Virus record (IMG/VR): IMGVR_UViG_3300018421_000096
Coordinates: 1 to 34,071 of that record
DNA from: a virus
Length of the DNA: 34,071 nt
Strand: one strand, 5' to 3'
How positions within the stretch are numbered: position 1 is the first letter of the stretch; the number at the start of each line of letters is the position of its first letter. The position numbers were made by a program, and so were the translations under genes. The notes below the pieces were generated by a model. The model saw only the letters and a program-made list of their open reading frames with translations, did no database searches and was not told the DNA's origin. Shown here one piece after another: positions 14,901 to 34,071 of this stretch.

Positions 14901-16035
14901 GTTTCTCTACATCTAATACTGTGGTTGATACAGTTTCAATATCAAATCCTCTAACGTATGCTTTTCCTGGTGAAACTTTTACAGCAAGTAAATCTTCTGA
15001 TGGGGTATTGAGTTGATCTGTTACCTGCCCATCAAAGTAAACGCCATCATTGGATAATCTATCATTTAAAGATTCTGCTATTTGGACACCAAAATTTCCT
15101 AAGGAATAATCGCCAGATTCTTCATAGGTTCTTTTAGCAAAATAGTCTCTAATTATACTGTATACTGAAGTATTTTGAAGTTTCTTAATTTCTCCGTTTT
15201 CAATCCTAATTAACTCGACAAAATTTTTGTCGTCAAAATCTGTTAATAATTTTTTAGTAAGAGTTGTGGATATTTTTAATCTATCTGCACCTGGAGCAGC
15301 ATAGTTTGAAAATCCTTTAGCATTATCGTATAATGCAGAATCATCCTTAGCAGTTATAATTTCTTCAGATATGCTAAGACCAACTCTATATGATGGTGTG
15401 TTGCTATATGGATCAAGAATTACCTTGTCTTCGCTAACATCTACAAAGGTTCCTCTGATAAAATATACACCATTACCAATAGATACGTTACTTCCTATTG
15501 CAGAAGAATTTTCTGAAACTACAGAAGCTACAGTATCTCCAGCATTGATATTGGTATTGCCATATGTAAAACTTTCTTCAGTAATTAAAACCTCACCATC
15601 AGAGAAAGTTGCTACTTCTTCAGTAGTTCCTGCTTGGTGATACCTTACAAACAGTGTAAAATCTGTGATCCCTTCTGTTGGTGAGATATTTTCATATTTG
15701 TCAACAGACGCAACTACACCAGAAGACTGACCTCTGAGTCTCTTACCTACAAGTTTATCTGCATAATTAATAATATCTATTCCCAAATGATCTGAATTTA
15801 CTTTAATGCAAGTATATTCACCATCATAATTAATATTTCCAGGGATCACCATAGATCCCTCTTTGAATATATGACTTCCGAAAGACTCGATTTGATTTTG
15901 CAGCATTGACTGCAAAGTCGTCAATTCTCTTGCTTGAACAGGAAATCCTGGTTTAAATAAGACCCTATAAAAATTATCGTCCTTATCAAAATCGTCAAAA
16001 TAAGGGCTTATATTGAGGTTCGTTTTCTGTGGCAT
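8929..16035 (-). CDS. Very large DUF4815-type virion structural protein, 2368 aa
   Basis: The N-terminus (NISPYFDDFDKDDNFYRVLF, KPGFPVQARELTTLQSMLQN, IFKEGSMVIPGNINYD) is the DUF4815 signature of large tail/baseplate proteins of T4-like cyanophages. Around residues 1538-1554 there is a proline run (RRPPPPPPAPPQNR). It is followed by DPLAQSFTVDETGAFLTAVD and VTIEVRTVELGTP, a beta domain with the conserved 'DPLAQSF' start. Later parts carry GxGY repeats (near 10.50 and 10.62 kb) and a NNEIVYYDS...TRGIDGSLVRSHPT module. The C-terminal domain ends FRIKIVMSGTNEARSPKFKD. It sits where T4 has gp9-gp11, so a baseplate-periphery role is likely. It starts three bases after gp8 ends. Confidence 0.88.
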   Translation of the reverse strand: MPQKTNLNISPYFDDFDKDDNFYRVLFKPGFPVQARELTTLQSMLQNQIESFGSHIFKEGSMVIPGNINYDGEYTCIKVNSDHLGIDIINYADKLVGKRLRGQSSGVVASVDKYENISPTEGITDFTLFVRYHQAGTTEEVATFSDGEVLITEESFTYGNTNINAGDTVASVVSENSSAIGSNVSIGNGVYFIRGTFVDVSEDKVILDPYSNTPSYRVGLSISEEIITAKDDSALYDNAKGFSNYAAPGADRLKISTTLTKKLLTDFDDKNFVELIRIENGEIKKLQNTSVYSIIRDYFAKRTYEESGDYSLGNFGVQIAESLNDRLSNDGVYFDGQVTDQLNTPSEDLLAVKVSPGKAYVRGFDIETVSTTVLDVEKPRDTRTVTNALVPFEFGTLFKVNFAAGLPFIGINNNSNTVELHNRRKTTQFATAIPTNSTKIGEARIYAYNLSDAPYSNNASEFDLYLFDVQTYTEIVVNEDLNSTQCPATSFVEGVSSGASGFVVTAASSATIMLTQTSGTFIAGEQLRINGTTEVSRSVKTVKTFGIQDVKSVYQDSTGTVSGGELKVDFSADLVLQKKTATNFSITDTITISTAGIATVPGKNFVGIKSDAIIRYQTSDLSVETFNRVQSVSSDGLVLTLEAATDVSNVCDGNLPSSTQTVNFSIGVPVVQEKGGLYAHLEEDNISSVGLSGSNLTVVKQIREKSTNSSGQLTLTPSETGITSSRYETFDADRYSIVYSGSNGYEQLTSDQFTLATDGSVTIQGLLASQTSDVTVNTTLKKIGIKEKQKEYVRSEKVNITNTSSGISTSLAGLSTSPFYGTRIEDREICLNLPDVVKLIGVFESLNTSAPVLDSLEFPSGLSLDTNSILGEKILGKDSGALAQVVTRSSATKVEIVRLNDAEFAVGETVTFQESNIQSAIATINKGNYQNVTSHYRLDTAQREQYYDYSRIVRKNDGYIPSRRLLVVFDYYRVPSNDLGDVYTVNSYDPERYKYDIPVLPSGIRVSNVLDFRPRVAQFTSTTSSPFAFSSRTFATAGTNPTLVVAPLEGSVVDYSHYLPRIDKVSLDKEGNFSVTKGVSAVNPKAPSNVDSAMEIATIELPAYLYNVKDAKITITDNRRYTMRDIGKIEDRVETLETLTSLSLLELDTKSLQVRDADGFDRFKSGFFVDDFKDVGRLDKNDSEVNVDSSNNELTTPIDFYSLKPQVALEPSINLDTADFTQNLQLLDSNVQKTGDLITLKYTEKTWIEQPLASRVENVNPFNMIDFTGRIELSPASDNWVRNVFIDGGERSIVGDFDGSYIETIKISSTPDTHIRSRNVSFTAGGLRPLARHYQFFDSASGIDIAPKLIEITMSSGVFSVGENVQGFINGNRSSGGTRIFRARAIQPNHKTGPYNNPTTTISLNPYDRSLTLPTTYSASSTVLNVDSESLSDEVQGRYFGYVTKGMVLVGETSGAQAVVSDVRLVTDTFGDVGGSFFFRDPLASPPPPLRFETGTRTFKITSSSTNAQPLPGSLLISSGETTYTTSGIVDTFRQTRVIVRRPPPPPPAPPQNRGGGKDPLAQSFTVDETGAFLTAVDLFFANKDENEKVTIEVRTVELGTPTDQLVDDFSRVTLEPSQVNTSSDGTVATKVTFPSPIYLEPSKEYAIVILAPTTNNYEAWIARMGEKTVNTTTLPNAESVIVTKQYVGGSLFKSQNGTIWTASQFEDLKFKLYKANFATSQGTAYFYNTPLTTIDANLPKLTLDPIKTLPRKLKVGITTTSTMDAILQVGRKVSDGTDTRPYGYIEQVGGRLQTTEVSNVGAGYSNGSFSDVPLYTITGSGSGARGTVVVSANKLSSVSITTKGNGYVIGDVVGVTTSSVAKGTDGRVTVKTLDGKDTLYLTNVQGEEFTTNDDLVVYNGSTAVSFANTDILSSSVVNSLYEGNVIEVNQYGHGMHATNNIVTLSDIEPNTVPSTLSAELTIGSASISVANTSIFETFEGITTSKGFAKINNEIVYYDSITAGSGGSGTLGIGTRGIDGSLVRSHPTNSQIFPYELNGVSLTKINKQHNMSANALLSSSQDLDKYYIQIDRQDRATGNTQLSFTDENYVGGKDVIATKNIQYNTLLPRVNFITPGDGTNVSAQIRTVSGTSAGGSEVSFIDQGFESIEINEQNDLSSTRIVASEVNETNRLTNLPKNRSFTLGITMNSNDSNLSPVIDTANITMIYGRNRLNNPVSDYAFDGRVNLNSEDPHTSVYVTNKVSLKQPATSLKVLVGSYRHSSADFRVLYQLYRTDSNEVEQAFELFPGYDNLRDTNNDGFGDTIIDSTRNSGRADAYVVPSADGQFSEYQFSIDNLEQFNGFRIKIVMSGTNEARSPKFKDLRVIALA

Positions 16036-16038
16036 TTT

Positions 16039-17586
16039 TTAGAATTCCAGGATAATTTTAACGTCTTCTTTTTGTCTAGAATTTCTTGAAATAGCGGGTC
16101 TATTATCAATGTAGATAATGTCCCCTGATCCTTTATTTATCTCAGGAGTAGCAACTCCATTTGTAAACTGGACACCGAGTGAAATAACTTTTGATCCAGT
16201 TGGATTTGTTGAAACTCCAGTAAATCCAGTATCAATTGAACCGGAAAATCCACCAGTGCTAGTAATAGCATTTGCATTTGATGCAAACTCATAAACTTTT
16301 GCCGAAGTTGAAACTCCAACATAGTCAGTTTGATCAAAAGTAGTCTGATTTAAGAATGATGAGCGATCTTGAACATACTTCAAAATCTTTGTTTCGGTAT
16401 CATATGAGAACACATATCCTTTAGCAGTTCCCCCAGTAACAGACTGCTTAATTGCATCTCCAATGGAAAGGGTGCCAGTTACTGATGAAAATTTAATTGC
16501 TCCCAATGATGAGAACTGATTTTCAGTAAACACTGAAGTTGAACCAACAGATGTTGGATTTTTTACAACACCAATTTGAGAAATTGTAGTGTCTATTGGG
16601 AAATCCTTTGTAGAATCATCAAATCTTGCATAAAGTAAAACACGCTCAGCACCAAGTTCTCTATAAATGTCAAATCCATGTCCCTTTGATGGGGGTATAA
16701 TTGGAATTAACTTTGCTTTGGTTGTTGAATTGGAGTTAATTGATCCGAGATCAACGATTCCAAAACTATAATTTTTTCCACCAGAAGATACAGATGCACT
16801 GGTTATTCTTCCACTGCTATCAACATCAAGAACTGCTTTTCCACCTGTACCATCTCCAAGAATATCAACCTCATGAGTTCCCTGAGAATATCCAGCTCCT
16901 CTATTATCAATGTATATTTTCTTTATTTGATTTTCATTTACAGTAGAATCTCCATTATCTCTAACTGCTACAATTTGAGCATTGGTTGATGAAGACCAAT
17001 CGTTTGGAAGAGTAATATACTCTGTGGAATCAAACTTTATAATATCACTTGGAGTTACAGTAAACAAATATTTCCAAACATATCCATCACCACTTACACC
17101 AGCACTTGATGGTTCCAAATCAGTAAAAGTTGGTTCATCCAGTGATGCATTTCCAGTTGTGGAAATCCCAGATGATCCATTATCAATACAAATATAAACC
17201 TTATACTCACTATTCATTACATAATAGTTTGAGTCATAAAGTCTTGCTGACTTTGTAATTGGTGAAAGGTTATCAACACTATAGTCCTGCCTATACATTT
17301 CATAACGAGTTCCCCTTGTCCAGTCAACCCTTCTAACAACTCTTCTAACATTAGAAGATGTTATTTTTTTACCAAAGGACATGTTGTCACCAACAAAACT
17401 TTGATAATCAAAATTATCAACTGGACTTGGTGTATCAGTGTCCCAGGTAGAGGACTTACCAAATCCACTGGCAGTTGGGTTTGCTAGTCCTACAAAAACA
17501 TAATATGAATTAGAAGTATTGGTGACGGAATCTACAAAATTTCCCGCATTTAATATTCTAAACTGATCTGTTACAATTGCCGCCAT
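16039..17586 (-). CDS. 8: Baseplate wedge subunit gp8
   Basis: A homologue of T4 gp8 (334 residues), a dimeric baseplate wedge component. The matches are spread along the protein: an N-terminal YYVFVGLANPTA, then RRVDWTRGTRYEMYR (T4 RRDWGDTRYPDPY), GDGYVWKYLFTVTPSDIIKF (T4 GDGYVWEYLFEIPPD), EYITLPNDW (T4 EYIVVPWP), and a C-terminal GDIIYIDNRPAISRNSRQKE with VKIILEF (T4 GEMIYMENRPPIIMAMDQTE, INILFTF). At 515 residues it is enlarged by an insertion between about residues 220 and 480, which includes two Gly-Tyr repeats (RGAGY, SGGKNY) and a TGGTAKGYVFSYD segment. A late promoter lies just upstream. Confidence 0.93.
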   Translation of the reverse strand: MAAIVTDQFRILNAGNFVDSVTNTSNSYYVFVGLANPTASGFGKSSTWDTDTPSPVDNFDYQSFVGDNMSFGKKITSSNVRRVVRRVDWTRGTRYEMYRQDYSVDNLSPITKSARLYDSNYYVMNSEYKVYICIDNGSSGISTTGNASLDEPTFTDLEPSSAGVSGDGYVWKYLFTVTPSDIIKFDSTEYITLPNDWSSSTNAQIVAVRDNGDSTVNENQIKKIYIDNRGAGYSQGTHEVDILGDGTGGKAVLDVDSSGRITSASVSSGGKNYSFGIVDLGSINSNSTTKAKLIPIIPPSKGHGFDIYRELGAERVLLYARFDDSTKDFPIDTTISQIGVVKNPTSVGSTSVFTENQFSSLGAIKFSSVTGTLSIGDAIKQSVTGGTAKGYVFSYDTETKILKYVQDRSSFLNQTTFDQTDYVGVSTSAKVYEFASNANAITSTGGFSGSIDTGFTGVSTNPTGSKVISLGVQFTNGVATPEINKGSGDIIYIDNRPAISRNSRQKEDVKIILEF

Positions 17587-17614: not shown

Positions 17615-20600
17615 TTATCCTAGATCGTTTCTGAGAGCACCTGTGTCTCTATGACCAAATGTTCTTCTTTGAATTGTTGGATAAGTGCTAAGTCCTGAGA
17701 AAGTCAATCCAGTTACACCAATTGATATTGGTGAAGAAGATCTTGAAATTCCAGCAAGACGACCCCAAGAGAATCTACCACAAGTAACAAATCCTGTTGC
17801 AGATATTTCTGATGTGGTTGTTGTTGAAAGAATGTCAGCGACAAACTCAGCATTCGCCGCTGCAGATGAGAATGATCTAACTATGTAAACATTATCTGCA
17901 AATGTTGTTCCAACACCAACTATAGCGGCATCTTGAGCATTATTGATTGAAGTTACACCAGAACCAACTATTGTATCTACAATCAAAATTGGATATCCAT
18001 TGTTAAGGTCGGTATATTGTGATGAAGATGAAGCATTCAAGAAGAACTTAAGACCCAGAGTTCCATTTCCACCACTACCTGTTGTTGTAGTAATTCCAGT
18101 AACAATTCCACTTCCACCCTGAACAATATCAATTGAGGTTACATTTTCATAAGAAATATTTGTTGTTGGTGCCAATACTTTAGGAGCATTTGTATGCGTA
18201 TATCCAAATCCAGGATTTGTAATATTTGCAGTTCCGCTTAAAGATCCATTAGATACTGGAATTGTTGCAGAAGCTGTAGTTCCAATGCCAACTCCAATTA
18301 TTTTTGGTGCTGCGATAGAAACTGTAATTGCACTACCCACATATCCAGATCCACCATTACTGATGGTCAGAGCACTAATGGTTCCAGCAGCAGATACGGT
18401 AGCAGTTATTGCTGCAGAAACTGGATCACTAGATCCTTGATTTATGATTAGTGCATCTACACTACTAATGACAATTGAAGATTCATTTTCTTCATAGTTG
18501 AAGAATTGGGCATCATCTACAAATATTTCAGTTGATGCATCTGTAACATCTCCAATAATTCTTGCTGTTGGATAAACCAATGATTCAATGGATGGTCTTG
18601 ACTTATAAACATAATCGTTGTTTATAAATCTATCAACTTTCTGTTTGATCCAATTAAATGGTCTTGCGGTGTTTTCACTAATTCCAATACCAGTATACAA
18701 ATTAGTTTCAAGTAAATCCGAAGTAACAATACCAACAACTGTTCTTGGCTGTTGTGAATTTACACCACCATGTTTGATGAGTTGAATCTCATCACCTTCT
18801 TTGATAGTCTCAATAACTTCTACTGAGAAACTATCAGTTCCACGTGTACCTCTATAGAAGAAGATTGAAACTTTATCTTCTGGTCTTGGTGCTTCACTAA
18901 ACTCAAATGATGTTCCACCCGAGAAATTATAATGTGATCCAGGTTCCTGAACAACTCCGTTTATGAAGATTAAGAGAACAGCATTTAAATCTATGTCTGG
19001 ATCTCCATCCCCAACTTCGAAACTTAAAAGTTCACCCTGATAATACAGTGGGAATCTAGTTCTAACTCCATTTTGTAAAGTTGTAACTGGATCGATGAAA
19101 TCGAGTTCACCAAAAGTCCATGAAGAGAATGAATCTGAGAAAGTATCAAGAACTTCAAGTTCAAAATCTGCAAGTGGTGAAGCAAGACCTTTTGCTGTAA
19201 CTAGTCCAACTGGTTTAAATTTATCTCCAGGTTTGAATCCATAACCAGGTCTAGAAATCCTAAAGGATGATACTTCAAATAAAGTGGATCCAATACCAGT
19301 TGTTGATACTGCACCAACATCTACTGTTAAGAGTAATCCCTCACCAGTATCTGTAGTAGGTCCTATTCCACGACGCGATACTCCAACAATTGGAAGATTC
19401 TCATATGATGGTGCTGGAATACTAATGATTGGGTCTGTATATCCAGATCCACCAGAATTAACTGTAAAGATCAAAGTTCCACCAACACCAACTGTTGCGG
19501 ATACATCAGCACCACTTCCAGGCGATGCTCCATATTCGGTAACAGCAATCGATACAGAACCTCTATATCCAGATCCGTGAATATCTGTAGATCCTAAACC
19601 AACAGATTGAATGACTCCACCCGATACAACTACAGTTACTGCAGCGCCAACTAAAGGTGCAAATCCAAGACCTGGTGTTGATCCAAGAGAAACAATAACT
19701 CCACCTCTTGGTAATTGATTTTTGTTTACATCCTCAGGTGAAAGTACTAACTGACCATTCGACGATGTGATTCCAGTGAATACAACACTTGAAACTCCAA
19801 CAGAACCTTCTTCGAAGTTGTAGTTATTTCCAACGTTATTTGATGTTATTGGGGTTTGGAATATATCATTAATAAACAGAACTCCACTTCCAGTTTCAAT
19901 CCCAGTTGTATTAGCACCACCAACAGTTACTGTATAGGTTTTTCCTATACCAGTAAATGATTTTGAAATACTGTCAAATACTTGGTTTGTAGCATAATCT
20001 TGTCTCAGATAAACTCTTCCACCAAAGGATGATTTTACCTTAGTTAGATTATCTAATCCAATTAATTGTCCAAGATCTCCTCTTGGGGGTTCGGTAAAGT
20101 GAATTTTATTCTTGACAATATTAAAGGATCCAACATAAACCCTAGCATTATCACCATCACTATGACTTGTTGCAGAAGATCCAACAAATCCTCTTTCAAC
20201 TTTAACCAGGTTGAAACTACCAGTACCACTAATTGGACCTACAGCAGTTGTTCCAATACCAACACCCTCGACTTTGACATATTCATCATTAACTTTCATT
20301 ATATCTCCAGGAAGAATGGAGGAAATACCAGTCAGTGAGAAGAATGTAGATCCTACCGATATCGTTCCACCATTGTCAGTTAAATCGTAATTAATTGGTG
20401 TGAATGCAATTGGACTTTGTACAACACCATTGATAGAAATAAGAGACTTGCTAAGTTTCTTATACATTTCAAGTGTATGTGCATTTCCACCACCAGCATC
20501 AGTGAACGTTACTGCAGTGCCAGCATTTGCATTTGCTTCACTGGTTGCTAGTTTGAATTGATTTGAATTTACACGTATCGCATATACTTCCGTAGACAAT

Positions 20601-23600
20601 CCAACGGAAGATCCTGCAATATTCATTACAGTCCCAGCAACTCCAGTAAATGTCGAGCCAGCATCATAGATCAATCTTTCTCCAGTATTGAAGAAGTGGT
20701 CGTCAATTGTAAATATTCCTGTTCCCTGATCAAGAACGGATGAAGATGCAGGATTGAATGTTTTGGCAAAAACTGGGATGGTATCGTGTGTTAAATCAAA
20801 TGCTGTTTTATTGCTTCTATCTCCATTTCTAGAATTATATGCAGAAACAATTAGTTCTTCATTTACTGGACCATATGTCAAGATGTCGGCAACATTATTC
20901 AAATCACTTTCTGATTGAATAATCTCACTGTATGTTTGAACAACAATTGATTGGTCGCTAGAGATTTCAGGATCTGGATAGAATTTCAATATAAAATCTG
21001 ATCCTGATAACTCTGATCCAAAAGTACCAATTCCACTTGTACTTCCAATAGACAAGAATGGATACTGCATTGTGTATGCGGATGTATCATCATGTGTTAC
21101 AAGTAACTGGTGGAGTGCAGTAGTGTTTCCATAACTTACTCGTGCAACAGACTTAATTGTTGTTACATCAGTCTTAGAAACACTAATTGGGGTAGAAATT
21201 CCTGTAGTTGTTTCAAAATTAGTCTGAAGTCTTGCTGAATTTTCTGTTCCTTCTGGTTGTGAACCAGAAAGGAATCTATATGTCCCAACACCAACAGATG
21301 TTGTGCCAAATCCAACTGCTATAGTTCTAACTAACACTGCATCCGACTCAGTGCTGTTAGTATAATCTAATGTAATAACACCAGAATTAATACTTCCTTT
21401 AAAGGTTCCTATAAAATTATCGGACAATTGTGTAGATTCATCATTGTCAAAATAATATTCCGATATAAATGTGTCAGATCCATCATGATCTAAGTAAAGT
21501 TCGACGATAGTTCTATCTTTTGAAGTGGTATTGAAAATTTCAACATTGGCAAAAATACCTTCAGTTTTATCAACTTCTCTAGAAACCAGAGAAACAGTTG
21601 TGCCAACTCCAACAGTAGTTGTTACTCCAACAAGATCAACAAATCCAATTGTTCTAGTATTAATTCCAGTTAGGGTGGTGTTGAATTGATTTTTCAATAT
21701 TTTGATATCATAATCAGTATTAAAAGACTCTAGTGGCACAAATCTCAATGCAAGGTCGTTTGTATTTGCATCAACATCCCCCAACTTTAAAGTAGTATCA
21801 ACAGTATTATTACTTGTTCTTCCACTAGTAATAGATGCTTTTTCTACAGTTAGTAAATTATTATTCTGTGATGGAACAGTAATAACTTCCAACACTTGAG
21901 TTTCTAATCCATCAGTGCTCTTAATTTGGATAAGATATCTACCATATCCATCAGTGATAGAAATGGAATCGAGATCTACATATAAATCGGTTTCACCATC
22001 ATTGTTTGAGAATAAATCTTTGATGTCATCTAAAATTAAAACTCTATTTGTGGAGCATTTGATATAATCTGCTAATTTTTTATTTTCAAGTTTAACAAAT
22101 TTTGATGATCCATTTTGAGTATCTACATCAAGTCCAAAGTCAAAATATTTTACAACATCAACTCTGTTATCGCTAATAATATCGATAAGTGCAATACTTG
22201 TAGCGGCAGCAGTAGTACCGACTCCTACTCTAGTTGTACTTGTAATTCCAGTATCTGAGAAATTTTTGAGTCCTGAAGTATGTAAAAGTCTATTTACAGG
22301 ATCAATCATCTCATCATATGTTATTGGACTCTTGATAGTGTAGGAAAGATTTTGATAATAATCATTATCTGGGGTTACTTGCAAATCAGAGTTTAAGGTT
22401 CCAATATCATTTACCCAACCCCTATTTGTATCAAGAGAATAATTGATGTTGAAGAATCCTTTATTGTTTTCAATAGATTCTACAGTTGCCTCTGTTCCTG
22501 ATTTCTTACCAATTAACTTTTCACCAACAGAGAGTTCATAAGATCCATATACTTTAAGAAGATCATTTCTATTGTCAGTGACTATGAGGTCTCTTTCTAC
22601 ATAATTTGAATTTTCCAATGTTAAAATCTTTTCAGAATCATGGAACTCTAAAGAAGACTGGATAACATCAAATGTGGGATAATTTGACTGCTTAATCAAA
22701 TTGGCATAAGCATTTTGATTGGTGGCTGCAACTCCAGCATTAGTTGCAATGCCGGACATGTCAAATTCAACTGTTGCGGGATTTGTATTTGTATATTTTG
22801 TTATTGGGAAGAATTTATATTGATAATTTGCAGAATTGAAACCATCACCATCCGTTCCAATTTTCTGTATTCCCTCAACAAATACACTATCTCCAACAGC
22901 AAATGGAGCAGTACTGAACCCTAAAATAGGAGTTTGTAGTGTACATGTAACTATTCCAGCTGGAGAAGATACGCAACTTTGAATTCCAACACCATTAGTG
23001 TTGTTTATCGCATATACAACGTTTTCTATTTCATTCAGTCCTTTTGGTGATTCTAAAATATTTACGGCAACAATAGAAGTTCCCTGAAGAACTGCCTCAA
23101 GTGTGCCAGACTCAACAGAAAGTCCAGTAGTTGGATCTACGATTATCAGATCTGGTGCAGAAATATAATTTTGTCCACCAGAAGTTACATTGATTGACGA
23201 TATTGTATTTCTATTACTTAAACGAACATTTGGTGATATGTATGCCTCAGGACTTAATGTCTTATCAGCAGAAAAATCAAATCCTTGATCATCAATAATA
23301 ACTTCTTTAATTTTACCAATCGTCTGTGATTTTGGAACAATATCAGCATTTACACCATCTGTAGATGCAATACTAACAAATTCTGGTAATTTTTTATAGT
23401 TAGATCCACCAGAAGTAATCCTTAGTGAATTTACACCGCCTTTTGCTGTTACTGATGTAGTTGAATATTTTGCCTGGGCAAATTCAGTAGAAGCATAAGA
23501 AAGTTTTTCTGGAACTTCATTCAGTGCTATTTGGAAAGTGGTTGATCCAATACCAGAAATTGAGTAAGTTCCAGTATAAGAACTATCATCAAATAATATC

Positions 23601-26600
23601 TCTGAATAATTTTTTACAGTTGTATCAGAACTACTAATATATCCAGATTTTTCTAAAGTATAATATAGTTTTGCTGGCAATTTGTCGCTGTAGTTTAAGG
23701 TGACAGTTCCAACACCAGTGGTTCCTATACCAATTGTTCCAACGCCAATTACACTTGCTGTTGTAATTGTTCCGCCAACAGAAACTAATTCATTTCTAAA
23801 TTCTCTATCATAGAAGATTTTAAAATTATATCCACTCAATGAAGTATCTGTTACATTGAATACTAAATTATTATTTCTAATAACTGGTATTTGTGGATTA
23901 ACTTTTGATAATTCATGCCCAGCACCACCAGTAGAAGCGAAACTTACGATAGTTGGTGGGATTGAAATAGAATCATTATATGTTTCAGATAACTGAATCT
24001 TATCATCGTCTACTCTATAGACATAATATGATCCTGTTTCAAGACCAGAAATAATCAAATCCGAAGAATTATAGAAAACTTTTTCTCCAGTTTCAAATCC
24101 GTGTGATGTAATTGTTAATTCACTTGTTGCTGTTCCAACAGAAGTTGAAGTGAATCCCACGGGGTTGACTAACAGTTTACCCTCATCTGCATTATATTTT
24201 ACAAAAATACCAGTAGATGTTCCAATCCCAACGGAAAGATTTGGTTTAAGTGTCAGTGAGATTAAATCACCATCACTCAATCCATGATCTGTTGAAACAG
24301 AAACTGTAGATGCAATTTTTTGTACTTTTGCAGTAACCTGATTGAAGGTAGATTCTAATGAATATTTGAAGTCGTCACTATCACCATTTGCAGTAAATGA
24401 TCTAAAGTATAATCCGTTTGTCGTTACTCCAACTTGTGTTGAAAGACCAATGTAATCTCTACCCTTATTAACTACGTATAAAGTCTCAGAAGTTGTAGAT
24501 GGAATATTGAATGTAGTGCTAGTTTCAGTGTTTGAAACTGAAATTTTCGAAGCTCCACTTACTGTTCTCAGTATAACTTGTTGATTTGTCTTAAATGGAT
24601 GATCTGGAAGATATATGCTTTGAGTTGGGACTGATATAATTTTTGCATTCAATCCAACAGTATATACATTAGATATTCCAATTCCAGTGGTAGATCCTAT
24701 ACCGACTTGTTGTTGAGGATTAAAGTATACTTTTTGATTTAAATTTGAATCAAAATCAGTAGTATTAATCTTCAATATCAGATTGTTAGTAACTTCTGTA
24801 ATTTTAGTTGATACTGTGTGTCCAGCACCAGATAGTCCTCTAGCAACTCTTAATACTTTGGTATCTTGGAATACATTTAAAACAGAAAGTCTTTCTGTTC
24901 CTATTGCTACTGTAGATCCAACCGAAATAATTTTAGGAGTATTGGAAACATAGATATCAGTTACAAATCCAGAGACTGAATTGCTGGAAACTGGTCCAGA
25001 TAGATATAAAATTTCAGAAGAAACCCCAACAGTATGTTTGTTCGTCAAACCTTTAATATAAGTTGAAACTCCCGATACAGAAACTTTGTTTCCATCCTGA
25101 ATTGTATGTGGTTCTGTTGTTTGAATTAGTACTTCAGTATCACTAGATCTTAATACTACAGAATCAGAAAATGTTTCAACACTTGTAGATACATTTACAA
25201 TATCTTTTCCAGTAATGGATTGAACATAAGCACCAAGACCACCACCATTAGTATCTGTATTATCAAACGATGCTAGATCATACACCGAATAACCAGATCC
25301 AGGTTCTCTAATATAAAAATCATCAACAGAACCTTTTGTTATTGATTGTACCGTAGCTCTTTGAATGAGAATTTTATTTGGTTCTGAAATAAAATCATTT
25401 GATGAATATGAATCATCAGTTCTATATGGGAAGGTATTTCTTCTTAATTTTGAATCATTAAAGTTGAAAGTTTGATCGACATTTTGGGATACTGGTAATG
25501 ATCTGTACGTATCTCCAACAAAATATGGGAATTGTGGAATTAGTGAACTTGATACTGGATCAGTAGTTATTCCTGCAAAATATGCATAAACTCCATTGGG
25601 AAACTCTGGGGTTTTTGCAAATCTTCCATTATGCTCATCTAAACTTCCAGAATTATCAAACTTATAATCATCAGTAAAGAATCCATCAGAAAATCCAGAT
25701 GGTCTATCAACTACACTAGATGTAGATCTAATATAACCAGATTGTAACTGTACAATAGTTGAATTACTATCAAGTGGATCTAAATGTCCATATGGACCAT
25801 AGATTGGATTTCCATCATGTGCCCATCCAATAATTGGTGAGTGGGATGCTCCATTATCCGAGAAAACAGAATTTCCAATTTCTGTACTATATCCAACAAA
25901 ACTATATTTTAATCCCTGGGAATTTTCAGATACTAGTTCTTGTCCAAATCTACTATAATTGTCTACGGTTAAGTCTCTTACAGATGCTCTAGCATTTGCA
26001 TTTGAACCGACAGATTTTGCGCTGACTGTGGTATTTGATGCTCCGTACCCAACTCCACCATTTAAGACAACTACTGAGCTTACTTTTTGGTTTGAAATAA
26101 CTGCTCTTAGTTTTGCACCAACTCCAGATCCAGAAACAATAAGATCTGGTGCACTAGTATATTCTGAACCGCCGTTTGTAATTTGAACACTTGCTATTTT
26201 TCCATCAATGACGTTTGGTTTTAATTCAACATCTTTTCCAGTTTTGAAGGAAACATTAGGTCTCTTATGGAAGTTAAGAATGGTTGATCCATATCCAGTT
26301 CCAGTTTCATAAAGGTAGAGATCTACAATTTCACCTCTAATCTGTGGAGTTGCAGTTATAACTCCAGTAACACCATCAAATTCTGCATTAATCGTTATAG
26401 TAATATCTTTGTATGCAAAATTTTGATATCCAGATCCAGTTGAAGTTAACTTAACAAATTTTCTTCTACTGTAGTTTTCACTAAATTGGGTGGTTCCTAC
26501 ACCAGGATCACTCAATCTAAACGTATTATCATCAAGTTTTAAAACATAGTGCTCATCTCCACTAGTCAATCCTCCAATTTCAGTTCCATCCGTAGTATAA

Positions 26601-29518
26601 GTGATAATATCACCATCATTGAATCCATGGTTTTCAAAGATAACGGTATTATAAACCGTAGAGATTCCTGTAGGTTTTACAATCAGTTTTCTGTTTTCAT
26701 AACCACTACCAGGACTAATAACTTTGATTTCCTTTAAAGTATTTTTTCCATCAAATAATCTAAATTTATGAATCCCTTGTGTTGTAGATGTTGTAAATCC
26801 AACCGTGTTAATACCACTAGTATAATCATTAAAAGTTTGATACAACTTGATTGTGGATGTATTAACTATTTCTGCAAAATATGCCGACCCACTGTGTAGA
26901 GTTGAAGTTTGATCTACATTACTTCCATTAAAAGTACCTATGCCAATTTCAGAATTTCCATTTTTATTGTATACAATTTTATCACCATTTCTTAAATTGT
27001 GATTTTTTAAGAAGGTAATTGTGTCATCATTAATATCAATTCCTCCACCACCTGTCGATTCTCTTGCATCAAATTCTACCTCACGGTATCTTGTTTCTAA
27101 AATAGGTTCTAAAATAGCACCGTTACCATTACCACCACTAATAGTAATTGACTGAACACGTCTAATATCAAAATCTTGTGGGTCTACATGTACAGACTTT
27201 ACAGAACCCCTCACAACTGGTCTAATTAATGCGGTAGTTCCACCACTAACTACTGAATTTCCTAAAGTTACAGTTGGTGGATTTATGACATCATAGTCAG
27301 ATCCAGCATTTAACAGATCAACCTTTCCTACAGGACCATAATAAATTTTATCAAATGATTTATAGTTTGAAATTTCAACACCATTAATCAATAATCCAAC
27401 GCTTCCGGGCAGAGTTTTTACGCCTGTTCCGTTTTTAATATTTTGTCCTGATGGGAATTTACTTAAAAGTGCTTGGGGATATATTAAACCTGTTTTTTGT
27501 CTTGCTAATGTAAAAGTGTGAGATCCACTTGAATTTGTTGATGAAAACTCAATTGGAGTATCACTTTCTATAAATGAGGGTGATTCATATAGTTTAATTT
27601 TATTATTTTGAGAAAGAACCTTAACGTAATAAGTTCTTTCAGATAATCCATCAAGGGTATCAATTTCAGCAGTGTACTGTACTTCATCACCAGTTACAAA
27701 TGGTACACTTGAACTAAAAGATAATACTGAGTATTTTAATGTTGATGTGTTATATCCTTCAAGGGCACTTCCACTAGCAGAACTAATCGTTGCTTTCTTT
27801 ACATCTTTTGTGATTTGATATGATGGTAAAGAGTTTGACGCTACATAAAAATTCTCATCATCCTCATTATACAGATTTTGAACATCACTAGTCAAACCAT
27901 CATAAGCAACTGGAATCGAAGAACTTGATGCTGTTTTTAATTTTCTTCTAATTGTATAATCTACATCAGCAGATGGGGAAAATCCTCCAAGATTGCCAAG
28001 TGTTATTTGGCTATTAGATACGTTAATAGATAAAACAGTAACGTTCTCTCTAGAAATTGTCTGAGTAGATCCTTGAAGAATATCTACAGTATCTCCAACT
28101 CTAAGACTGGACTTATCAATAGATGATTTTAATGTGAAAGTCGAACCAGATATAGAGTCAACTTCAAATCTTACTGTAGTATTATAAATCCAAGAATTTG
28201 CAAAAATTTGCTTATACTTCTTATCAGTCTCTGGATTTTTGATTATTTCTCCAACGTTCTTAACATATAACGTCTGACCCTCAGATACTAAGGATGGATC
28301 ACCAACTTTTTCAAATTCTGAGAGTACTCCACCTACTCTAATTTCTACTTTCTTGGTAGTATCTCCATTTTCATATCCAAAGAAAACTTCACTAGTTCTA
28401 ATCTCTGAAGATACACCAATCTCTTCATCAATTCCAGTACAGTTTAAAAACTGATTTACAGTTTTTTCTCCATAGGAAATTATATTATTTCCAGACACTA
28501 AAGTTCCAGTTGTTCCAAATCCAACCGTAGAATCTACAGTAATAACTGAAGAACCAACAGATACCTTAGTGATCGACTTTACTTTTGGTTGAACTGCAAA
28601 AGTACCTTCAACAGTGCTTCTATCGGTATATCCAACAAATAAGTTTAACTTATAATATGTACTAATTCCAGATCTCGTAAAGATTTCTACTTCAGAAACA
28701 GACGCTCTAGTATTTGCATCAGCAGAATTTATAATGGTTTGTCCAACTAATTTGTTTGGATCTCCAGAAATTCTTTCAGCAACTACAACTTCCCTCTTTA
28801 AAAACTCTGCACTTGATGGTTTAATTAGGTATCTTTCAAGATCTACTACAGTTGGAGTAACTCCATAAAGAACATTAAAGAGAATTTTGAAAGATTCTTT
28901 TGTTCCTTTTGCTTTATATAAAGATCCAGATTCTTTAATAAAATTATTTACATCAAGATTTGATACAAAATCAGTATCTTCTAAACCTGGAGTGAAAGTA
29001 TACTTTAATTTCTTATAAAATTCTTTTAAAAATAAAGCACTTAAATTCTGTACAGTATCTCCTGCAGTGTGTGCTTCTTGAGATGTTTTATTAAATACTA
29101 ATTCTTCAGAATTTAAATCAGTTCTATATGTTTGAATTCCACTAAAACCTCTAATACATCCAGTAAAGGTGTTTGTGGTGATCCCAGTGTAGGTAATGAT
29201 TTCATCACCAATCCTGAACAAACCATACTCTTTAGGAAATCCCTTAGTTGAGTAGACCTGTACAGTATCGGTAGTTGAAGAAATACTAGAATATAAAGTA
29301 GTCTGACCAGAAATTACTTCCTGTGTCAGATTATCTAACTGTAAATACTGATCTAAGTTTTCAGCAACGTCCGATGGACCGCCTTGGTACTCTTGAGAAA
29401 TATAATATTGCTTTAAAAAATCAACAGACTTTGGACTTTCAGAACGTAAAAATTCGGGAAGTTGGCTGTCAATGATTTGCTGAACCTTTACCCTCTGCTC
29501 AAACCCAGTTTGTATCAT
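17615..29518 (-). CDS. Giant repeat-rich structural protein in the gp7 position, 3967 aa, with YHYH-like region
   Basis: An uninterrupted 3,967-codon gene between gp6 and gp8, the place of T4 gene 7 (1,032 residues, baseplate wedge initiator). Residues 1-250 form a distinctive head (QRVKVQQIIDSQLPEFLRSE, KSVDFLKQYYISQEYQGG, ALFLKEFYKKLKYTF, KGTKESFKILFNVLYGVTPT). The rest is beta-repeat: more than ten GxGY units, several 'HGF--GD-v-Y' units, three 'INGVVQ-P' units (near 18.95, 19.87 and 20.43 kb), and a YHYH-like segment near 25.8 kb (IIGWAHDGNPIYGPYGHLDP). The C-terminus is RRTFGHRDTGALRNDLG. It begins one base after gp6 ends, with AGAGG upstream. Identity as a gp7 equivalent rests on position; similarity to T4 gp7 was not tested. 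Confidence 0.85.
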   Translation of the reverse strand: MIQTGFEQRVKVQQIIDSQLPEFLRSESPKSVDFLKQYYISQEYQGGPSDVAENLDQYLQLDNLTQEVISGQTTLYSSISSTTDTVQVYSTKGFPKEYGLFRIGDEIITYTGITTNTFTGCIRGFSGIQTYRTDLNSEELVFNKTSQEAHTAGDTVQNLSALFLKEFYKKLKYTFTPGLEDTDFVSNLDVNNFIKESGSLYKAKGTKESFKILFNVLYGVTPTVVDLERYLIKPSSAEFLKREVVVAERISGDPNKLVGQTIINSADANTRASVSEVEIFTRSGISTYYKLNLFVGYTDRSTVEGTFAVQPKVKSITKVSVGSSVITVDSTVGFGTTGTLVSGNNIISYGEKTVNQFLNCTGIDEEIGVSSEIRTSEVFFGYENGDTTKKVEIRVGGVLSEFEKVGDPSLVSEGQTLYVKNVGEIIKNPETDKKYKQIFANSWIYNTTVRFEVDSISGSTFTLKSSIDKSSLRVGDTVDILQGSTQTISRENVTVLSINVSNSQITLGNLGGFSPSADVDYTIRRKLKTASSSSIPVAYDGLTSDVQNLYNEDDENFYVASNSLPSYQITKDVKKATISSASGSALEGYNTSTLKYSVLSFSSSVPFVTGDEVQYTAEIDTLDGLSERTYYVKVLSQNNKIKLYESPSFIESDTPIEFSSTNSSGSHTFTLARQKTGLIYPQALLSKFPSGQNIKNGTGVKTLPGSVGLLINGVEISNYKSFDKIYYGPVGKVDLLNAGSDYDVINPPTVTLGNSVVSGGTTALIRPVVRGSVKSVHVDPQDFDIRRVQSITISGGNGNGAILEPILETRYREVEFDARESTGGGGIDINDDTITFLKNHNLRNGDKIVYNKNGNSEIGIGTFNGSNVDQTSTLHSGSAYFAEIVNTSTIKLYQTFNDYTSGINTVGFTTSTTQGIHKFRLFDGKNTLKEIKVISPGSGYENRKLIVKPTGISTVYNTVIFENHGFNDGDIITYTTDGTEIGGLTSGDEHYVLKLDDNTFRLSDPGVGTTQFSENYSRRKFVKLTSTGSGYQNFAYKDITITINAEFDGVTGVITATPQIRGEIVDLYLYETGTGYGSTILNFHKRPNVSFKTGKDVELKPNVIDGKIASVQITNGGSEYTSAPDLIVSGSGVGAKLRAVISNQKVSSVVVLNGGVGYGASNTTVSAKSVGSNANARASVRDLTVDNYSRFGQELVSENSQGLKYSFVGYSTEIGNSVFSDNGASHSPIIGWAHDGNPIYGPYGHLDPLDSNSTIVQLQSGYIRSTSSVVDRPSGFSDGFFTDDYKFDNSGSLDEHNGRFAKTPEFPNGVYAYFAGITTDPVSSSLIPQFPYFVGDTYRSLPVSQNVDQTFNFNDSKLRRNTFPYRTDDSYSSNDFISEPNKILIQRATVQSITKGSVDDFYIREPGSGYSVYDLASFDNTDTNGGGLGAYVQSITGKDIVNVSTSVETFSDSVVLRSSDTEVLIQTTEPHTIQDGNKVSVSGVSTYIKGLTNKHTVGVSSEILYLSGPVSSNSVSGFVTDIYVSNTPKIISVGSTVAIGTERLSVLNVFQDTKVLRVARGLSGAGHTVSTKITEVTNNLILKINTTDFDSNLNQKVYFNPQQQVGIGSTTGIGISNVYTVGLNAKIISVPTQSIYLPDHPFKTNQQVILRTVSGASKISVSNTETSTTFNIPSTTSETLYVVNKGRDYIGLSTQVGVTTNGLYFRSFTANGDSDDFKYSLESTFNQVTAKVQKIASTVSVSTDHGLSDGDLISLTLKPNLSVGIGTSTGIFVKYNADEGKLLVNPVGFTSTSVGTATSELTITSHGFETGEKVFYNSSDLIISGLETGSYYVYRVDDDKIQLSETYNDSISIPPTIVSFASTGGAGHELSKVNPQIPVIRNNNLVFNVTDTSLSGYNFKIFYDREFRNELVSVGGTITTASVIGVGTIGIGTTGVGTVTLNYSDKLPAKLYYTLEKSGYISSSDTTVKNYSEILFDDSSYTGTYSISGIGSTTFQIALNEVPEKLSYASTEFAQAKYSTTSVTAKGGVNSLRITSGGSNYKKLPEFVSIASTDGVNADIVPKSQTIGKIKEVIIDDQGFDFSADKTLSPEAYISPNVRLSNRNTISSINVTSGGQNYISAPDLIIVDPTTGLSVESGTLEAVLQGTSIVAVNILESPKGLNEIENVVYAINNTNGVGIQSCVSSPAGIVTCTLQTPILGFSTAPFAVGDSVFVEGIQKIGTDGDGFNSANYQYKFFPITKYTNTNPATVEFDMSGIATNAGVAATNQNAYANLIKQSNYPTFDVIQSSLEFHDSEKILTLENSNYVERDLIVTDNRNDLLKVYGSYELSVGEKLIGKKSGTEATVESIENNKGFFNINYSLDTNRGWVNDIGTLNSDLQVTPDNDYYQNLSYTIKSPITYDEMIDPVNRLLHTSGLKNFSDTGITSTTRVGVGTTAAATSIALIDIISDNRVDVVKYFDFGLDVDTQNGSSKFVKLENKKLADYIKCSTNRVLILDDIKDLFSNNDGETDLYVDLDSISITDGYGRYLIQIKSTDGLETQVLEVITVPSQNNNLLTVEKASITSGRTSNNTVDTTLKLGDVDANTNDLALRFVPLESFNTDYDIKILKNQFNTTLTGINTRTIGFVDLVGVTTTVGVGTTVSLVSREVDKTEGIFANVEIFNTTSKDRTIVELYLDHDGSDTFISEYYFDNDESTQLSDNFIGTFKGSINSGVITLDYTNSTESDAVLVRTIAVGFGTTSVGVGTYRFLSGSQPEGTENSARLQTNFETTTGISTPISVSKTDVTTIKSVARVSYGNTTALHQLLVTHDDTSAYTMQYPFLSIGSTSGIGTFGSELSGSDFILKFYPDPEISSDQSIVVQTYSEIIQSESDLNNVADILTYGPVNEELIVSAYNSRNGDRSNKTAFDLTHDTIPVFAKTFNPASSSVLDQGTGIFTIDDHFFNTGERLIYDAGSTFTGVAGTVMNIAGSSVGLSTEVYAIRVNSNQFKLATSEANANAGTAVTFTDAGGGNAHTLEMYKKLSKSLISINGVVQSPIAFTPINYDLTDNGGTISVGSTFFSLTGISSILPGDIMKVNDEYVKVEGVGIGTTAVGPISGTGSFNLVKVERGFVGSSATSHSDGDNARVYVGSFNIVKNKIHFTEPPRGDLGQLIGLDNLTKVKSSFGGRVYLRQDYATNQVFDSISKSFTGIGKTYTVTVGGANTTGIETGSGVLFINDIFQTPITSNNVGNNYNFEEGSVGVSSVVFTGITSSNGQLVLSPEDVNKNQLPRGGVIVSLGSTPGLGFAPLVGAAVTVVVSGGVIQSVGLGSTDIHGSGYRGSVSIAVTEYGASPGSGADVSATVGVGGTLIFTVNSGGSGYTDPIISIPAPSYENLPIVGVSRRGIGPTTDTGEGLLLTVDVGAVSTTGIGSTLFEVSSFRISRPGYGFKPGDKFKPVGLVTAKGLASPLADFELEVLDTFSDSFSSWTFGELDFIDPVTTLQNGVRTRFPLYYQGELLSFEVGDGDPDIDLNAVLLIFINGVVQEPGSHYNFSGGTSFEFSEAPRPEDKVSIFFYRGTRGTDSFSVEVIETIKEGDEIQLIKHGGVNSQQPRTVVGIVTSDLLETNLYTGIGISENTARPFNWIKQKVDRFINNDYVYKSRPSIESLVYPTARIIGDVTDASTEIFVDDAQFFNYEENESSIVISSVDALIINQGSSDPVSAAITATVSAAGTISALTISNGGSGYVGSAITVSIAAPKIIGVGIGTTASATIPVSNGSLSGTANITNPGFGYTHTNAPKVLAPTTNISYENVTSIDIVQGGSGIVTGITTTTGSGGNGTLGLKFFLNASSSSQYTDLNNGYPILIVDTIVGSGVTSINNAQDAAIVGVGTTFADNVYIVRSFSSAAANAEFVADILSTTTTSEISATGFVTCGRFSWGRLAGISRSSSPISIGVTGLTFSGLSTYPTIQRRTFGHRDTGALRNDLG
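25780..25870 (-). other. YHYH-like domain segment within the giant protein
   Basis: Encodes SPIIGWAHDGNPIYGPYGHL around residues 1215-1245, preceded by FVGYSTEIGN and followed by an SGYIRSTSSVVDRPSGFSDG stretch. The 'G-a-DG-PIYGPYG' core is typical of YHYH proteins. The domain's biochemical role is not settled. Confidence 0.6.
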
Positions 29519-29519
29519 C

Positions 29520-31433
29520 TTATACCCTCTTTAGCTCTCCGTTTAAGTAACTAGAAGTCGATTTATAACCTACACCGGATGTTTGCTCTCCAGATGTAAT
29601 TGTATCTCTCACCATATTTATGGCGCTATTTGAAACATCAAAGGACAAATACAAGTCCTTCAATCCTATTACATCATTTGATTCTGGTATTGCTTGAATT
29701 TCAACAACATTATTATTTTCTACGGTAGATGTAAATGTAATCGTATTAATAATTATCTCACCCTTGACGTAATCAACGGTTCCAATTGGATTTAAAGTTC
29801 TATCAATCATATAATTTCCAGTGGAATCCTTAAGATCTTTTGTGACTACCAGGATTCCTTTTCCACTTCCATCAAGTGTTCCGTCAGATTTTTTGTTTGG
29901 AACGTCTGTAAAGTAATATAATTCAGAACTACCAGCAATTGTAAACCCAGTGCTCTTAATGTTAAAACCTTCAACATTAATATGGAATCTATTTCCATAG
30001 CACAACTCATATTGTCCTGGTGCTTCTATCAAAGCATTCAGATTTCTTCTAATTCTAACGCGGGTGATGTTTGAAGAAATAGCATCATCGACGTTATCAA
30101 TTGTCTGACAAAGTTTACTGTACTTAAATCTTCCACCAAACTGATTGATGTTTGATGATGAGAATGTATTTAAAACTGATATAACGTTTGTCTTCAGATC
30201 ATTTACGCTTGAAACACGAGAACTATTGTAGTAAACTGCCGTGTCGATTTCAACGTAAAGAATTTTGAGATCAACAATCTGTTGATTTATACCAGAAATG
30301 CTATATTCTTTCAGTTTTGTGAGAATATTGTTCTTATCAAAGTCTGATACAAAGCTTCCATTCTTAGGTTTGATGCTAATAAAGACGTTTCCATACTGTG
30401 GTGGGTCCAATTCTTCACCACCAACGACAGAAACAGATTCTGTGTTTGGATAAATTGATTGAATAATTGCCTCATAGTCACGGTTAGTTACCGCTCTATA
30501 CTGAGATGCATATATTCTTGGTGCAAAGTACTTAATTGATTCTACAGACTCAATGTCTCCACCATTTGCAGCAGAACTTACTGTTGAAACAGTAACAGAT
30601 CCACTTGGAACAATGATGTTATCATCAGAGTCAGTTACTCTTCCAGAGAAAGAGAAGTTTGATGCACCGTTTCCAGTCTTACCATCTGTAATAATATAAG
30701 AAACTGTGATGATTGCTCCCGTCTCAAGTTTCTTTCCAAAGTATCCATCACCAAAAAGTAACTCATATTTTTCATCCTGAACTTCTTGAATCAAGTAGAT
30801 TTCAGAAGTTGAGTTTAAATTTAAAATATTATTTGCTAAACTATATTCTCTACCATCACCAGTATCTGATAAACCCTTTACCTTAACTACAATTGTAGAA
30901 CTATCGATGAAAGAATTATCTAAAATAAATCTTTGATCAATGGATCCATCAACAACAAATGTCTTTCTAAGGAATGTTCCTTGATAGATCTTTAGATCTG
31001 TAAATGATCCAACCCCAGAACTGATTGTCGTTGTGACATCTTCTGGAATTGAGAAGATATAATTGCTATCATTCGTTGCACCAACGCATACTAGACCCGC
31101 CTGTAAGGTCATCGTAGCGGAAGAGCTAGTAGTTGGTACGTTAAAGTTTACAGTCGCCTGTGCGGCGCTTCTAGAGCGTGGTACGTATCCAATGTTTCTT
31201 GCCAAAGATACCACATTTTCTCTCAAAGTCGCAGAATCCAAGAAGGATTCATTGACGATCATGTTGGAATTAAACGCAGTAATATATGTGTTATACGCTA
31301 AAGTATCAATTAAGACCGAAAAATTAGACCCCTCAAAGTCAAAGTCCGTGAAATTGGAATTTGCACGCAAATAGTCCTTTATAGAGGTCTTTATCTGGTC
31401 AAAATCGAGATTTGTAAATTTAGTAAAAGGCAT
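29520..31433 (-). CDS. 6: Baseplate wedge subunit gp6
   Basis: A 637-residue homologue of T4 gp6 (660 residues), which forms the continuous ring joining the baseplate wedges around the hub. The N-terminus is characteristic: FTNLDFDQIKTSIKDYLRAN, then FEGSNFSVLIDTLAYNTYIT, NESFLDSATLRENVVSLARN and IGYVPRSRSAAQATVNF. The middle carries a Baseplate_J-like region with APRIYASQYRAVTNRDYEAI, then IQSIYPNTESVSVVGGEELD and PPQYGNVFISIKP. The C-terminal part (RVRIRRNLNALIEAPGQYEL, FHINVEGFNIKSTGF, GTVDYVKGEIIIN) also fits the family. It starts one base after gp25 ends, so gp25 and gp6 share a transcript. Confidence 0.95.
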   Translation of the reverse strand: MPFTKFTNLDFDQIKTSIKDYLRANSNFTDFDFEGSNFSVLIDTLAYNTYITAFNSNMIVNESFLDSATLRENVVSLARNIGYVPRSRSAAQATVNFNVPTTSSSATMTLQAGLVCVGATNDSNYIFSIPEDVTTTISSGVGSFTDLKIYQGTFLRKTFVVDGSIDQRFILDNSFIDSSTIVVKVKGLSDTGDGREYSLANNILNLNSTSEIYLIQEVQDEKYELLFGDGYFGKKLETGAIITVSYIITDGKTGNGASNFSFSGRVTDSDDNIIVPSGSVTVSTVSSAANGGDIESVESIKYFAPRIYASQYRAVTNRDYEAIIQSIYPNTESVSVVGGEELDPPQYGNVFISIKPKNGSFVSDFDKNNILTKLKEYSISGINQQIVDLKILYVEIDTAVYYNSSRVSSVNDLKTNVISVLNTFSSSNINQFGGRFKYSKLCQTIDNVDDAISSNITRVRIRRNLNALIEAPGQYELCYGNRFHINVEGFNIKSTGFTIAGSSELYYFTDVPNKKSDGTLDGSGKGILVVTKDLKDSTGNYMIDRTLNPIGTVDYVKGEIIINTITFTSTVENNNVVEIQAIPESNDVIGLKDLYLSFDVSNSAINMVRDTITSGEQTSGVGYKSTSSYLNGELKRV

Positions 31434-31434
31434 T

Positions 31435-31836
31435 TTATCTTGTTGCCTCTAGTAAAAATGAGAATTCTTGAGTTGGAAACTCTTGTCCGACAATATCAAA
31501 GATTACATTGACTTCAAAACTGTTTTCATCTGGTCTTGGATCGACTTCTACAACAACATTTGCAACTCTTGGCTCAAAATTTTCAATAGTATCTAAAATT
31601 TGCTCTTGAATTACCGACGCGGTTGCATAATCTACGAATTCAAACAGACTTGAACGTACATCTGAACCTATAAGAGAGTTAAAAAACCTCTCTGTTGGTA
31701 TCGTTTGTACCAAATTTCTTACAGATCTGCGAATTGCAGACTCATTTGTTAGAACAGGGAGGTCTTTTGTCACGGGATGTGGCTCAAAAGACAAACTAAT
31801 GTCCTTAAATGCTCTAGAAACCCGTGGAAGTGCCAT
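31435..31836 (-). CDS. 25: Baseplate wedge subunit gp25 (lysozyme-like fold)
   Basis: A 133-residue protein matching T4 gp25 (132 residues), the small wedge protein at the base of the sheath that helps start sheath assembly. Features are AFKDISLSFEPHPVTKDLPV, LTNESAIRRSVRNLVQTIPT, ERFFNSLIGSDVRSSLFEFV and the EPR-N-V-V-VDP segment, followed by a beta pair ending PTQEFSFLLEATR. The Glu-Pro-Arg (EPR) that contacts the gp48/sheath side in this family is present. A perfect late promoter sits 24 bases upstream, and gp6 follows after one base. Confidence 0.95.
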   Translation of the reverse strand: MALPRVSRAFKDISLSFEPHPVTKDLPVLTNESAIRRSVRNLVQTIPTERFFNSLIGSDVRSSLFEFVDYATASVIQEQILDTIENFEPRVANVVVEVDPRPDENSFEVNVIFDIVGQEFPTQEFSFLLEATR

Positions 31837-33522: not shown

Positions 33523-33634
33523 CTCAGGTAAAACAGTTTTTCATTTTTGTTTTATATAGAACATTTGCGCTTTATAAAGAGCTGGCGAAAGCAAGACTTT
33601 ATAGCTTACAGGGACCCATGGATTTTATATACAC

Positions 33635-33667
33635 GCCCCCAGGCGGCGGACCCCCACGACGGGGGGC
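33635..33667 (-). repeat. G/C-only hairpins in the spacer after the HicA-like gene
   Basis: CCCCC (33651-33655) pairs with GGGGG (33661-33665) across a 5-base loop. GCCCCC (33635-33640) can alternatively pair with the same G-run (33662-33667). The two structures are mutually exclusive. There is no T-tract, so a classical terminator is uncertain. Confidence 0.55.
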
Positions 33668-33721
33668 ACTGCCAAATCACGAACCAATGGACTGCCAAGG
33701 GCGCACGGGTCGTTGGTTCGT
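33668..33721. repeat. Inverted and direct repeats just downstream of the HicA-like gene
   Basis: ACGAACCAA (33679-33687) and TTGGTTCGT (33713-33721) are perfect 9-base inverted arms with a 25-base loop. The right arm touches the stop codon of the HicA-like gene. ACTGCCAA occurs twice in direct orientation (33668-33675 and 33691-33698), 23 bases apart. This could be a terminator stem or a protein-binding site. Confidence 0.6.
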
Positions 33722-33945
33722 TATGCTGCCGCCTTCGCTGCCATCATGAGAGCGTAGAACTTACGGAACTCCGACGACATACCAGGGGAGAGGGTTGAGC
33801 GTCCTTTGCTGCCATGGGAGGGAAGGTGGAAGGTTTGGGGAAGGTCAGGGTGGGTCACCTTGTCGTGACTGCCACCCGACCGAATGACGCCGCCTGCCTT
33901 GTGAATCAAGCGGCGGGCGTCACGAACTTTGATCGGGGATGCCAT
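33721..33945 (-). CDS. HicA-like mRNA-interferase-family protein, 74 aa
   Basis: The sequence has the HicA layout. An N-terminal helix (VRDARRLIHKAGG, residues 7-19) is followed by VIRSGGSHDKVTHP, whose Gly-Ser-His (25-27) holds the family's catalytic His. Next is a beta strand with HLPSHGSKGRS, matching the 'vP-H---el--G' segment, and a C-terminal helix (SSEFRKFYALMMAAKAAA). HicA toxins bind RNA with a dsRBD-like fold and cleave mRNA; length is usual. The ATG lies nine bases after the stop of the preceding partial gene, so both are probably co-transcribed. No HicB-type antitoxin is visible within the window. Codon use is GC-rich, unlike the phage genes. It might be a toxin, a decoy or a repurposed RNA-binding protein. 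Confidence 0.75.
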   Translation of the reverse strand: MASPIKVRDARRLIHKAGGVIRSGGSHDKVTHPDLPQTFHLPSHGSKGRSTLSPGMSSEFRKFYALMMAAKAAA

Positions 33946-33954
33946 GGAAGAATC

Positions 33955-34071
33955 CTACCAGAGGATGGGCGTACCGTCAAAGTCGGTCGCGGTGCCCTGC
34001 TGCTCATCGGCGGCGATGCTCTCCAGGATCTCCAGGAGTTGGGCACCGTCAGCGGCACGGTTGAGAAGGGA
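33955..34071 (-). CDS. C-terminus of an unidentified gene (cut by right edge)
   Basis: The last 38 codons of a minus-strand gene entering from the right edge: SLLNRAADGAQLLEILESIA, then ADEQQGTATDFDGTPILW and a TAG. The visible part is an amphipathic helix followed by an acidic tail ending in a hydrophobic ILW. It is GC-rich, like the HicA-like gene it immediately precedes. The fragment does not look like a HicB C-terminus (no HTH or ribbon-helix-helix), but too little is present to name it. Confidence 0.7.
   Translation of the reverse strand, partial: SLLNRAADGAQLLEILESIAADEQQGTATDFDGTPILW

Follow-up and report, generated by a model that had tools for sequence, protein, structure and literature searches.

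The gene that occupies positions 17615-29518 (minus strand) of the window, that is of the whole 34,071-nucleotide stretch of viral DNA analysed here, very probably (at about 0.85) encodes the baseplate wedge subunit gp7 of a T4-like cyanophage of the Kyanoviridae type. This equivalence follows from the position of the gene and from the homology of the N-terminal head of its product to T4 gp7. From the alignments described below, we conclude that residues ~1-300 represent the conserved gp7/gpI core of the wedge protein of contractile phages. The parts of the gene described below, and the neighbouring gp25, gp6, gp8 and VrlC-type genes, also lie on the minus strand.

As anticipated in the original prediction, the gene is a single uninterrupted open reading frame. 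It starts with ATG and contains 3,967 codons and no internal stop; a single base-shuffled version of the window had no stop-free run longer than 113 codons. Comparison with a relative (L009) over 3,591 codons gives differences of 0.21, 0.14 and 0.50 at codon positions 1, 2 and 3, respectively. Because this is the codon-position pattern of coding DNA, the gene can be regarded as protein-coding. Its start and the stop of gp6 are one base apart, and a ribosome-binding-like AGAGGG stretch is found upstream of the start. The gene order gp25-gp6-ORF-gp8, established with Pfam and PHROG, can be compared with the 6-7-8 order of T4. The gp25 homolog (sheath initiator; 31435-31836; Pfam GPW_gp25, E 8e-12; PHROG 261) is followed by a 637-residue gp6 homolog, the expected wedge partner (29520-31433; Pfam Gp6-like_1st, E 8e-18; PHROG 219), and, on the other side of the ORF, by a 515-residue gp8 homolog (16039-17586; Pfam Phage-Gp8, E 3e-14; PHROG 438). 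The proposed location at the T4 gene 7 position is thus confirmed by the flanking gp6 and gp8 homologs. Downstream of gp8, the series continues with a 2,368-residue VrlC-type/DUF4815 structural protein (8929-16035), a putative L-shaped-fibre assembly protein, a structural protein, gp13, gp14, gp15 and gp16. At the opposite end, the phage matches of the best rows do not extend into the last ~550 bases of the window (33526-34071), which contain no long minus-strand ORF; the GC content of the window peaks at 32-34 kb (0.45).

The head of the protein is its most conserved part. Residues 1-300 share 71-76% identity with relatives, as compared to 37-70% elsewhere in the protein, and the distinctive head noticed originally is therefore real. 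Since a direct phmmer search of the PDB with a single head sequence gave nothing useful, a profile was required. The head profile, made of cyanophage and pelagiphage heads, was compared using hhalign with a T4-side profile, built from nine Straboviridae-type phages and restricted to the C-terminal half of gp7. The two profiles matched with an E-value of 4.9e-7 (9.4e-9 in a second alignment), the aligned stretch running from about 190 to 295 in the head and from about 724 to 814 in T4 gp7. With the T4 gp7 sequence alone, the E-value was 4e-5. In control comparisons with the head profile, each of 11 further T4 proteins (from the tail, the neck and the terminase) gave E>=0.048, and the best of 60 column shuffles scored 27, as against 56.9 for the real alignment. 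A six-frame search of 12 whole records with the T4 gp7 profile returned, in eight of them, a single match corresponding to the ORF at the gene 7 position; the remaining four gave no match, and VrlC was never matched. Conversely, gene 7 was the sole match of the head profile in the whole genomes of T4, CC31, Aeh1 and D482, and the top two matches among all PDB sequences were gp7 (E 1.8e-4 and 1.3e-3). The T4 gp7 sequence also matches PHROG 2885 at the same site (T4 residues 730-758). In complete relatives, a gp7 match is found once at most and always in this ORF, so that the head does not behave as part of a fibre or other non-wedge protein accompanied by a separate gp7 elsewhere in the genome.

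The direct alignment between the head and T4 gp7 is limited to ~90-100 residues. For the first half of the core, the link to T4 goes solely through gp7 of the Sinorhizobium phage phiM12 (1,007 residues), in which residues 9-210 align with residues 643-835 of T4 gp7 and residues 65-167 with the cyanophage heads. The tail domain TIGR02242 was matched in phiM12 gp7, with a score under the cut-off of that model. The structural comparison with T4 gp7 proposed along with the original prediction was run on the head, and its outcome is mixed. In a Foldseek search against 350,542 chains, the first match was 5iv5_BJ (E 9.5e-4), a 1,004-residue chain of the T4 baseplate entry which we read as T4 gp7 from its length. 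However, the head model has a mean pLDDT of 58.8, with the core helices largely below 60, and as the model is weak, the alignment is poor as a superposition (TM 0.13). VIA-align applied to the same model aligned the inserted barrel described below and nothing else, T4 gp7 being absent from the list, and is thus uninformative as to the helical core.

Two other readings of the gene have to be considered. That it is an assembly or sequencing artefact, a chimera or the result of joined genes has a negligible probability. In a near-identical contig (L004, IMGVR_UViG_3300023180_000282; 99.9% identity over 10.8 kb), the frame is indeed broken by a 1-base gap at codon 2661. However, this gap falls within an AAATTTT stretch of that contig, and colinear, unbroken homologs of similar length (~3,600-3,970 residues) are found in many independent contigs and in isolates such as S-SRM01. 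The frame break is likely a sequencing or assembly error in L004, not in the window. It is also very improbable that the phage has no gp7, its 2,368-residue VrlC neighbour acting as a substitute and the long ORF encoding an unrelated structural or receptor-binding protein. Such a view has been published: pelagi- and cyanomyophages were said to be devoid of gp7, with VrlC taking its place (PMC7029224), and gp7 was placed, as highly divergent, in the non-cyanophage core (Sullivan et al., 2010). The absence stated in PMC7029224 conflicts with several deposited records, in which the ORF is named gp7. Moreover, profile comparison of VrlC with T4 gp7 gave no signal (E 0.33-0.36), and no match was found between the VrlC/DUF4815 protein and T4 gp6-gp14, whereas the match between the head of the ORF and T4 gp7 holds in both directions at the genome scale. 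The view expressed in PMC7029224 is thus contradicted, as far as sequence comparison can tell, and identification of the ORF as gp7 is retained.

The core of the window protein is made of two halves separated by a beta-barrel module. The first half (residues 1-65; 29324-29518) contains helices and a conserved QLPEF..KQYY signature. It is followed by the inserted barrel (residues 66-158; 29045-29323; module profile match at 71-142) and by the second half (residues 159-300; 28619-29044), which carries the motif YKAKGTKESFKILFNVLYG and within which residues 190-293 correspond to T4 gp7 724-813. A second copy of the barrel module is found immediately after the core (residues 317-380; 28379-28570; i-E 3e-20). 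In the inserted barrel, strands are modelled with block pLDDT values mostly of 76-87, falling to about 41-67 near residues 121-150, and VIA-align relates it to phage tail and virion proteins with Z 9-10. The barrel is missing from phiM12 gp7, where the core is uninterrupted at ~9-210. Accordingly, the two core motifs, Q-x-P (near residue 18) and YxxKG or YxxRG, are separated by 81 residues in phiM12 and by 182 in the window protein. In P-SSM4 gp7 (L087; 57144-79082), found at the same position and with the core motifs kept, the core is split by a far larger insertion (~600 residues), as indicated by a spacing of 686. The barrel module recurs in gp15 (residues 242-309; window 2287-3333) and, in part, in the VrlC-type protein (residues 1954-2004), which suggests module sharing among tail proteins. 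With reversed sequences as a control, the barrel profile gave one marginal match (i-E 0.017).

With 3,967 residues against 1,032 for T4 gp7, the protein is 3.8 times as long, in keeping with the almost fourfold ratio first put forward. The extra length lies nearly all after the core, plus the in-core barrel. The idea of a T4 gp7 made larger is not supported, however. In T4 gp7, also flanked by gp6 and gp8, ~640 residues precede the core (~643-835), whereas in the window protein the core comes first and the extension after. As this ~640-residue N-terminal part of T4 gp7 has no counterpart detected by sequence in the window protein, the latter would not be an enlarged version of the former. Profile windows covering residues 331-3967 matched neither residues 1-640 nor residues 836-1032 of T4 gp7, an absence which, being one of sequence, does not amount to proof.

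The ~3,650 residues that follow the core are conserved and colinear across cyanophage relatives. They contain eight clear GGxGY-type repeats and a weak one (1394-1411), scattered between residues 924 and 3742 without forming a single tandem array. The clear copies, identified with a repeat profile that gave zero matches in reversed sequences, are found at residues 924-955 (26654-26749), 1060-1174 (three in succession; 25997-26341; modelled as beta, with block pLDDT about 82-91 from ~1100), 2024-2134 (two; 23117-23449), 3343-3374 (19397-19492) and 3709-3742 (18293-18394). Therefore, of the long series of beta-repeat modules originally described, the modules themselves stand, as two barrel copies (71-142 and 317-380) and eight clear GGxGY repeats, but they are irregular and scattered. 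Four copies of the gp7-type GGxGY repeat also occur in the neck protein gp14 (window 3333-4742). Pfam recognises in the extension a YHYH domain and a weak Fn3-like stretch only, and no host-binding domain other than the YHYH family was recognised in the protein; binding of the host or of glycans by the extension would be a guess.

The YHYH-family domain (residues 1148-1318; 25565-26077) matches Pfam PF14240 with an E-value of 5.8e-26 (92.1 bits, for a cut-off of 25). The YHYH-like segment of the original prediction is thus upheld as a domain homology, but the YHYH motif itself is missing. None of 53 phage copies aligned with bacterial YHYH proteins has the motif, which is present in the bacterial L111 and L112. 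The phage residues aligned to it read, for example, KYSFVGY, while the remaining domain is conserved, including, in most rows shown of the alignment, the histidine of HSPIIG and the aspartate of DG. A conserved GVYAYF was considered as a degenerate YHYH and dropped, the bacterial alignment placing the true YHYH motif upstream of HSPIIG. The model of this region is poor (pLDDT 46.6), and Foldseek found no match for it at E 0.001.

The size of the protein, which the original prediction stressed, is not exceptional. It belongs to an annotated family, the PHROG 2885 'baseplate wedge subunit' profile spanning residues 2-3306 with 3763 bits. At E 1e-3, a tblastn search with the head retrieves 460 records of phages, each of them a cyanophage or of marine origin. 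Cyanophage orthologs at the same position contain 1,937 (S-CREM2), 3,048 (S-PM2), 3,895 (S-SRM01), 4,314 (S-CAM7), 5,195 (P-SSM2) and 7,312 (P-SSM4) residues. Given this range, 3,967 residues is a mid-range length; such a size is ordinary for cyanophages, and longer versions are already in databases. The P-SSM2 and S-SRM01 proteins are colinear with the window protein over nearly the full length (43-50% identity). That of P-SSM2, which already bears the gp7 annotation, differs by insertions totalling ~1,060 residues between window residues 3310 and 3343, and otherwise by ordinary divergence. In pelagiphages and in a methylophage, the proteins at the gene 7 position are about a quarter of this length or less (874-1,016 residues; Mosig 874, Melnitz 896, HTVC008M 1,016), and those of Mosig and HTVC008M have no YHYH domain. 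Their heads are nevertheless homologous to those of cyanophages, with tblastn E-values down to about 1e-19 and E <=1e-50 against the head profile, which itself includes them. It should be noted that the pelagiphage protein at this position (L098, PHROG 3465, NC_020484) carries the label 'head closure Hc2', probably a mislabel due to the repeats in common with gp14. Finally, the S-CREM2 protein, whose orthology to the window protein was established here, was detected in virions with 91 unique peptides (PMC10665884).

How such a protein is arranged in the baseplate can be proposed by analogy, no published structure of a marine cyanomyovirus baseplate having been found in the literature searched. 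In T4 and in the Vibrio phage XM1, the core binds two copies of gp6 and holds the wedge (PMC10457771, PMC6300606). By homology, the core of the cyanophage protein would pair with two gp6 copies, as in the (gp6)2-gp7 complex of T4 and the (gp16)2-gp17 complex of XM1, and would connect each of the six wedges with gp25 and with the sheath. XM1 gp17 (242 residues), a reported T4 gp7 ortholog far smaller than the window protein, has a core (1-79 and 107-133) interrupted by a loop (80-106), and this loop and the C-terminus bind tail spikes (PMC10457771). In a comparison of layouts, which is not a sequence alignment, these two spike-binding places match, by position along the chain, the two enlarged sites of the cyanophage protein. 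On this ground, a role of the gp7 extensions as a rim or docking platform is somewhat favoured. The inserted barrel and the long C-terminal part would project outward and form the periphery of the baseplate, on which gp8, the VrlC-type protein and the fibres would dock, and the pull of the fibres may then reach gp6 and gp25 and trigger contraction.

A more extensive role can be envisaged, in which the extension of a gp7 core would replace the separate peripheral proteins gp9, gp10 and gp11 of T4. The large extension is colinear across cyanophages, gp8 is followed in order by VrlC, and no gp9-gp12 homolog was recognised in the window; a comparison of VrlC with T4 gp9-gp12 gave no match either. 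On the other hand, no segment of residues 331-3967 matches the T4 gp7 regions outside the core, and the Pfam content of the extension is limited to the two elements cited above. It is accordingly with reserve that we mention this rather doubtful scheme, with two permissive growth sites, in and after the core, and a giant gp7 that would form most of the rim and do the work of the T4 gp7 N-terminal part, gp9, gp10 and gp11. The YHYH-family domain offers another alternative. For the YHYH domains of jumbo-phage tail proteins, Iyer et al. predicted a Zn-dependent hydrolase function involving a His triad plus an Asp (PMC7824862), and the strong Pfam match could lead one to see here a virion metal-dependent hydrolase helping to breach the cell envelope. 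Loss of the YHYH motif of the bacterial proteins in all 53 phage copies makes this improbable. Host binding by the domain is possible, albeit hypothetical.

Identification of the ORF as gp7 answers a small published disagreement, in that cyanophages and their relatives very probably carry gp7 and that VrlC, judging from its sequence, is not a substitute for it. Moreover, the two sites at which the core has expanded, one within it and one after it, indicate where the fibre-docking surfaces of cyanophage baseplates may be sought.
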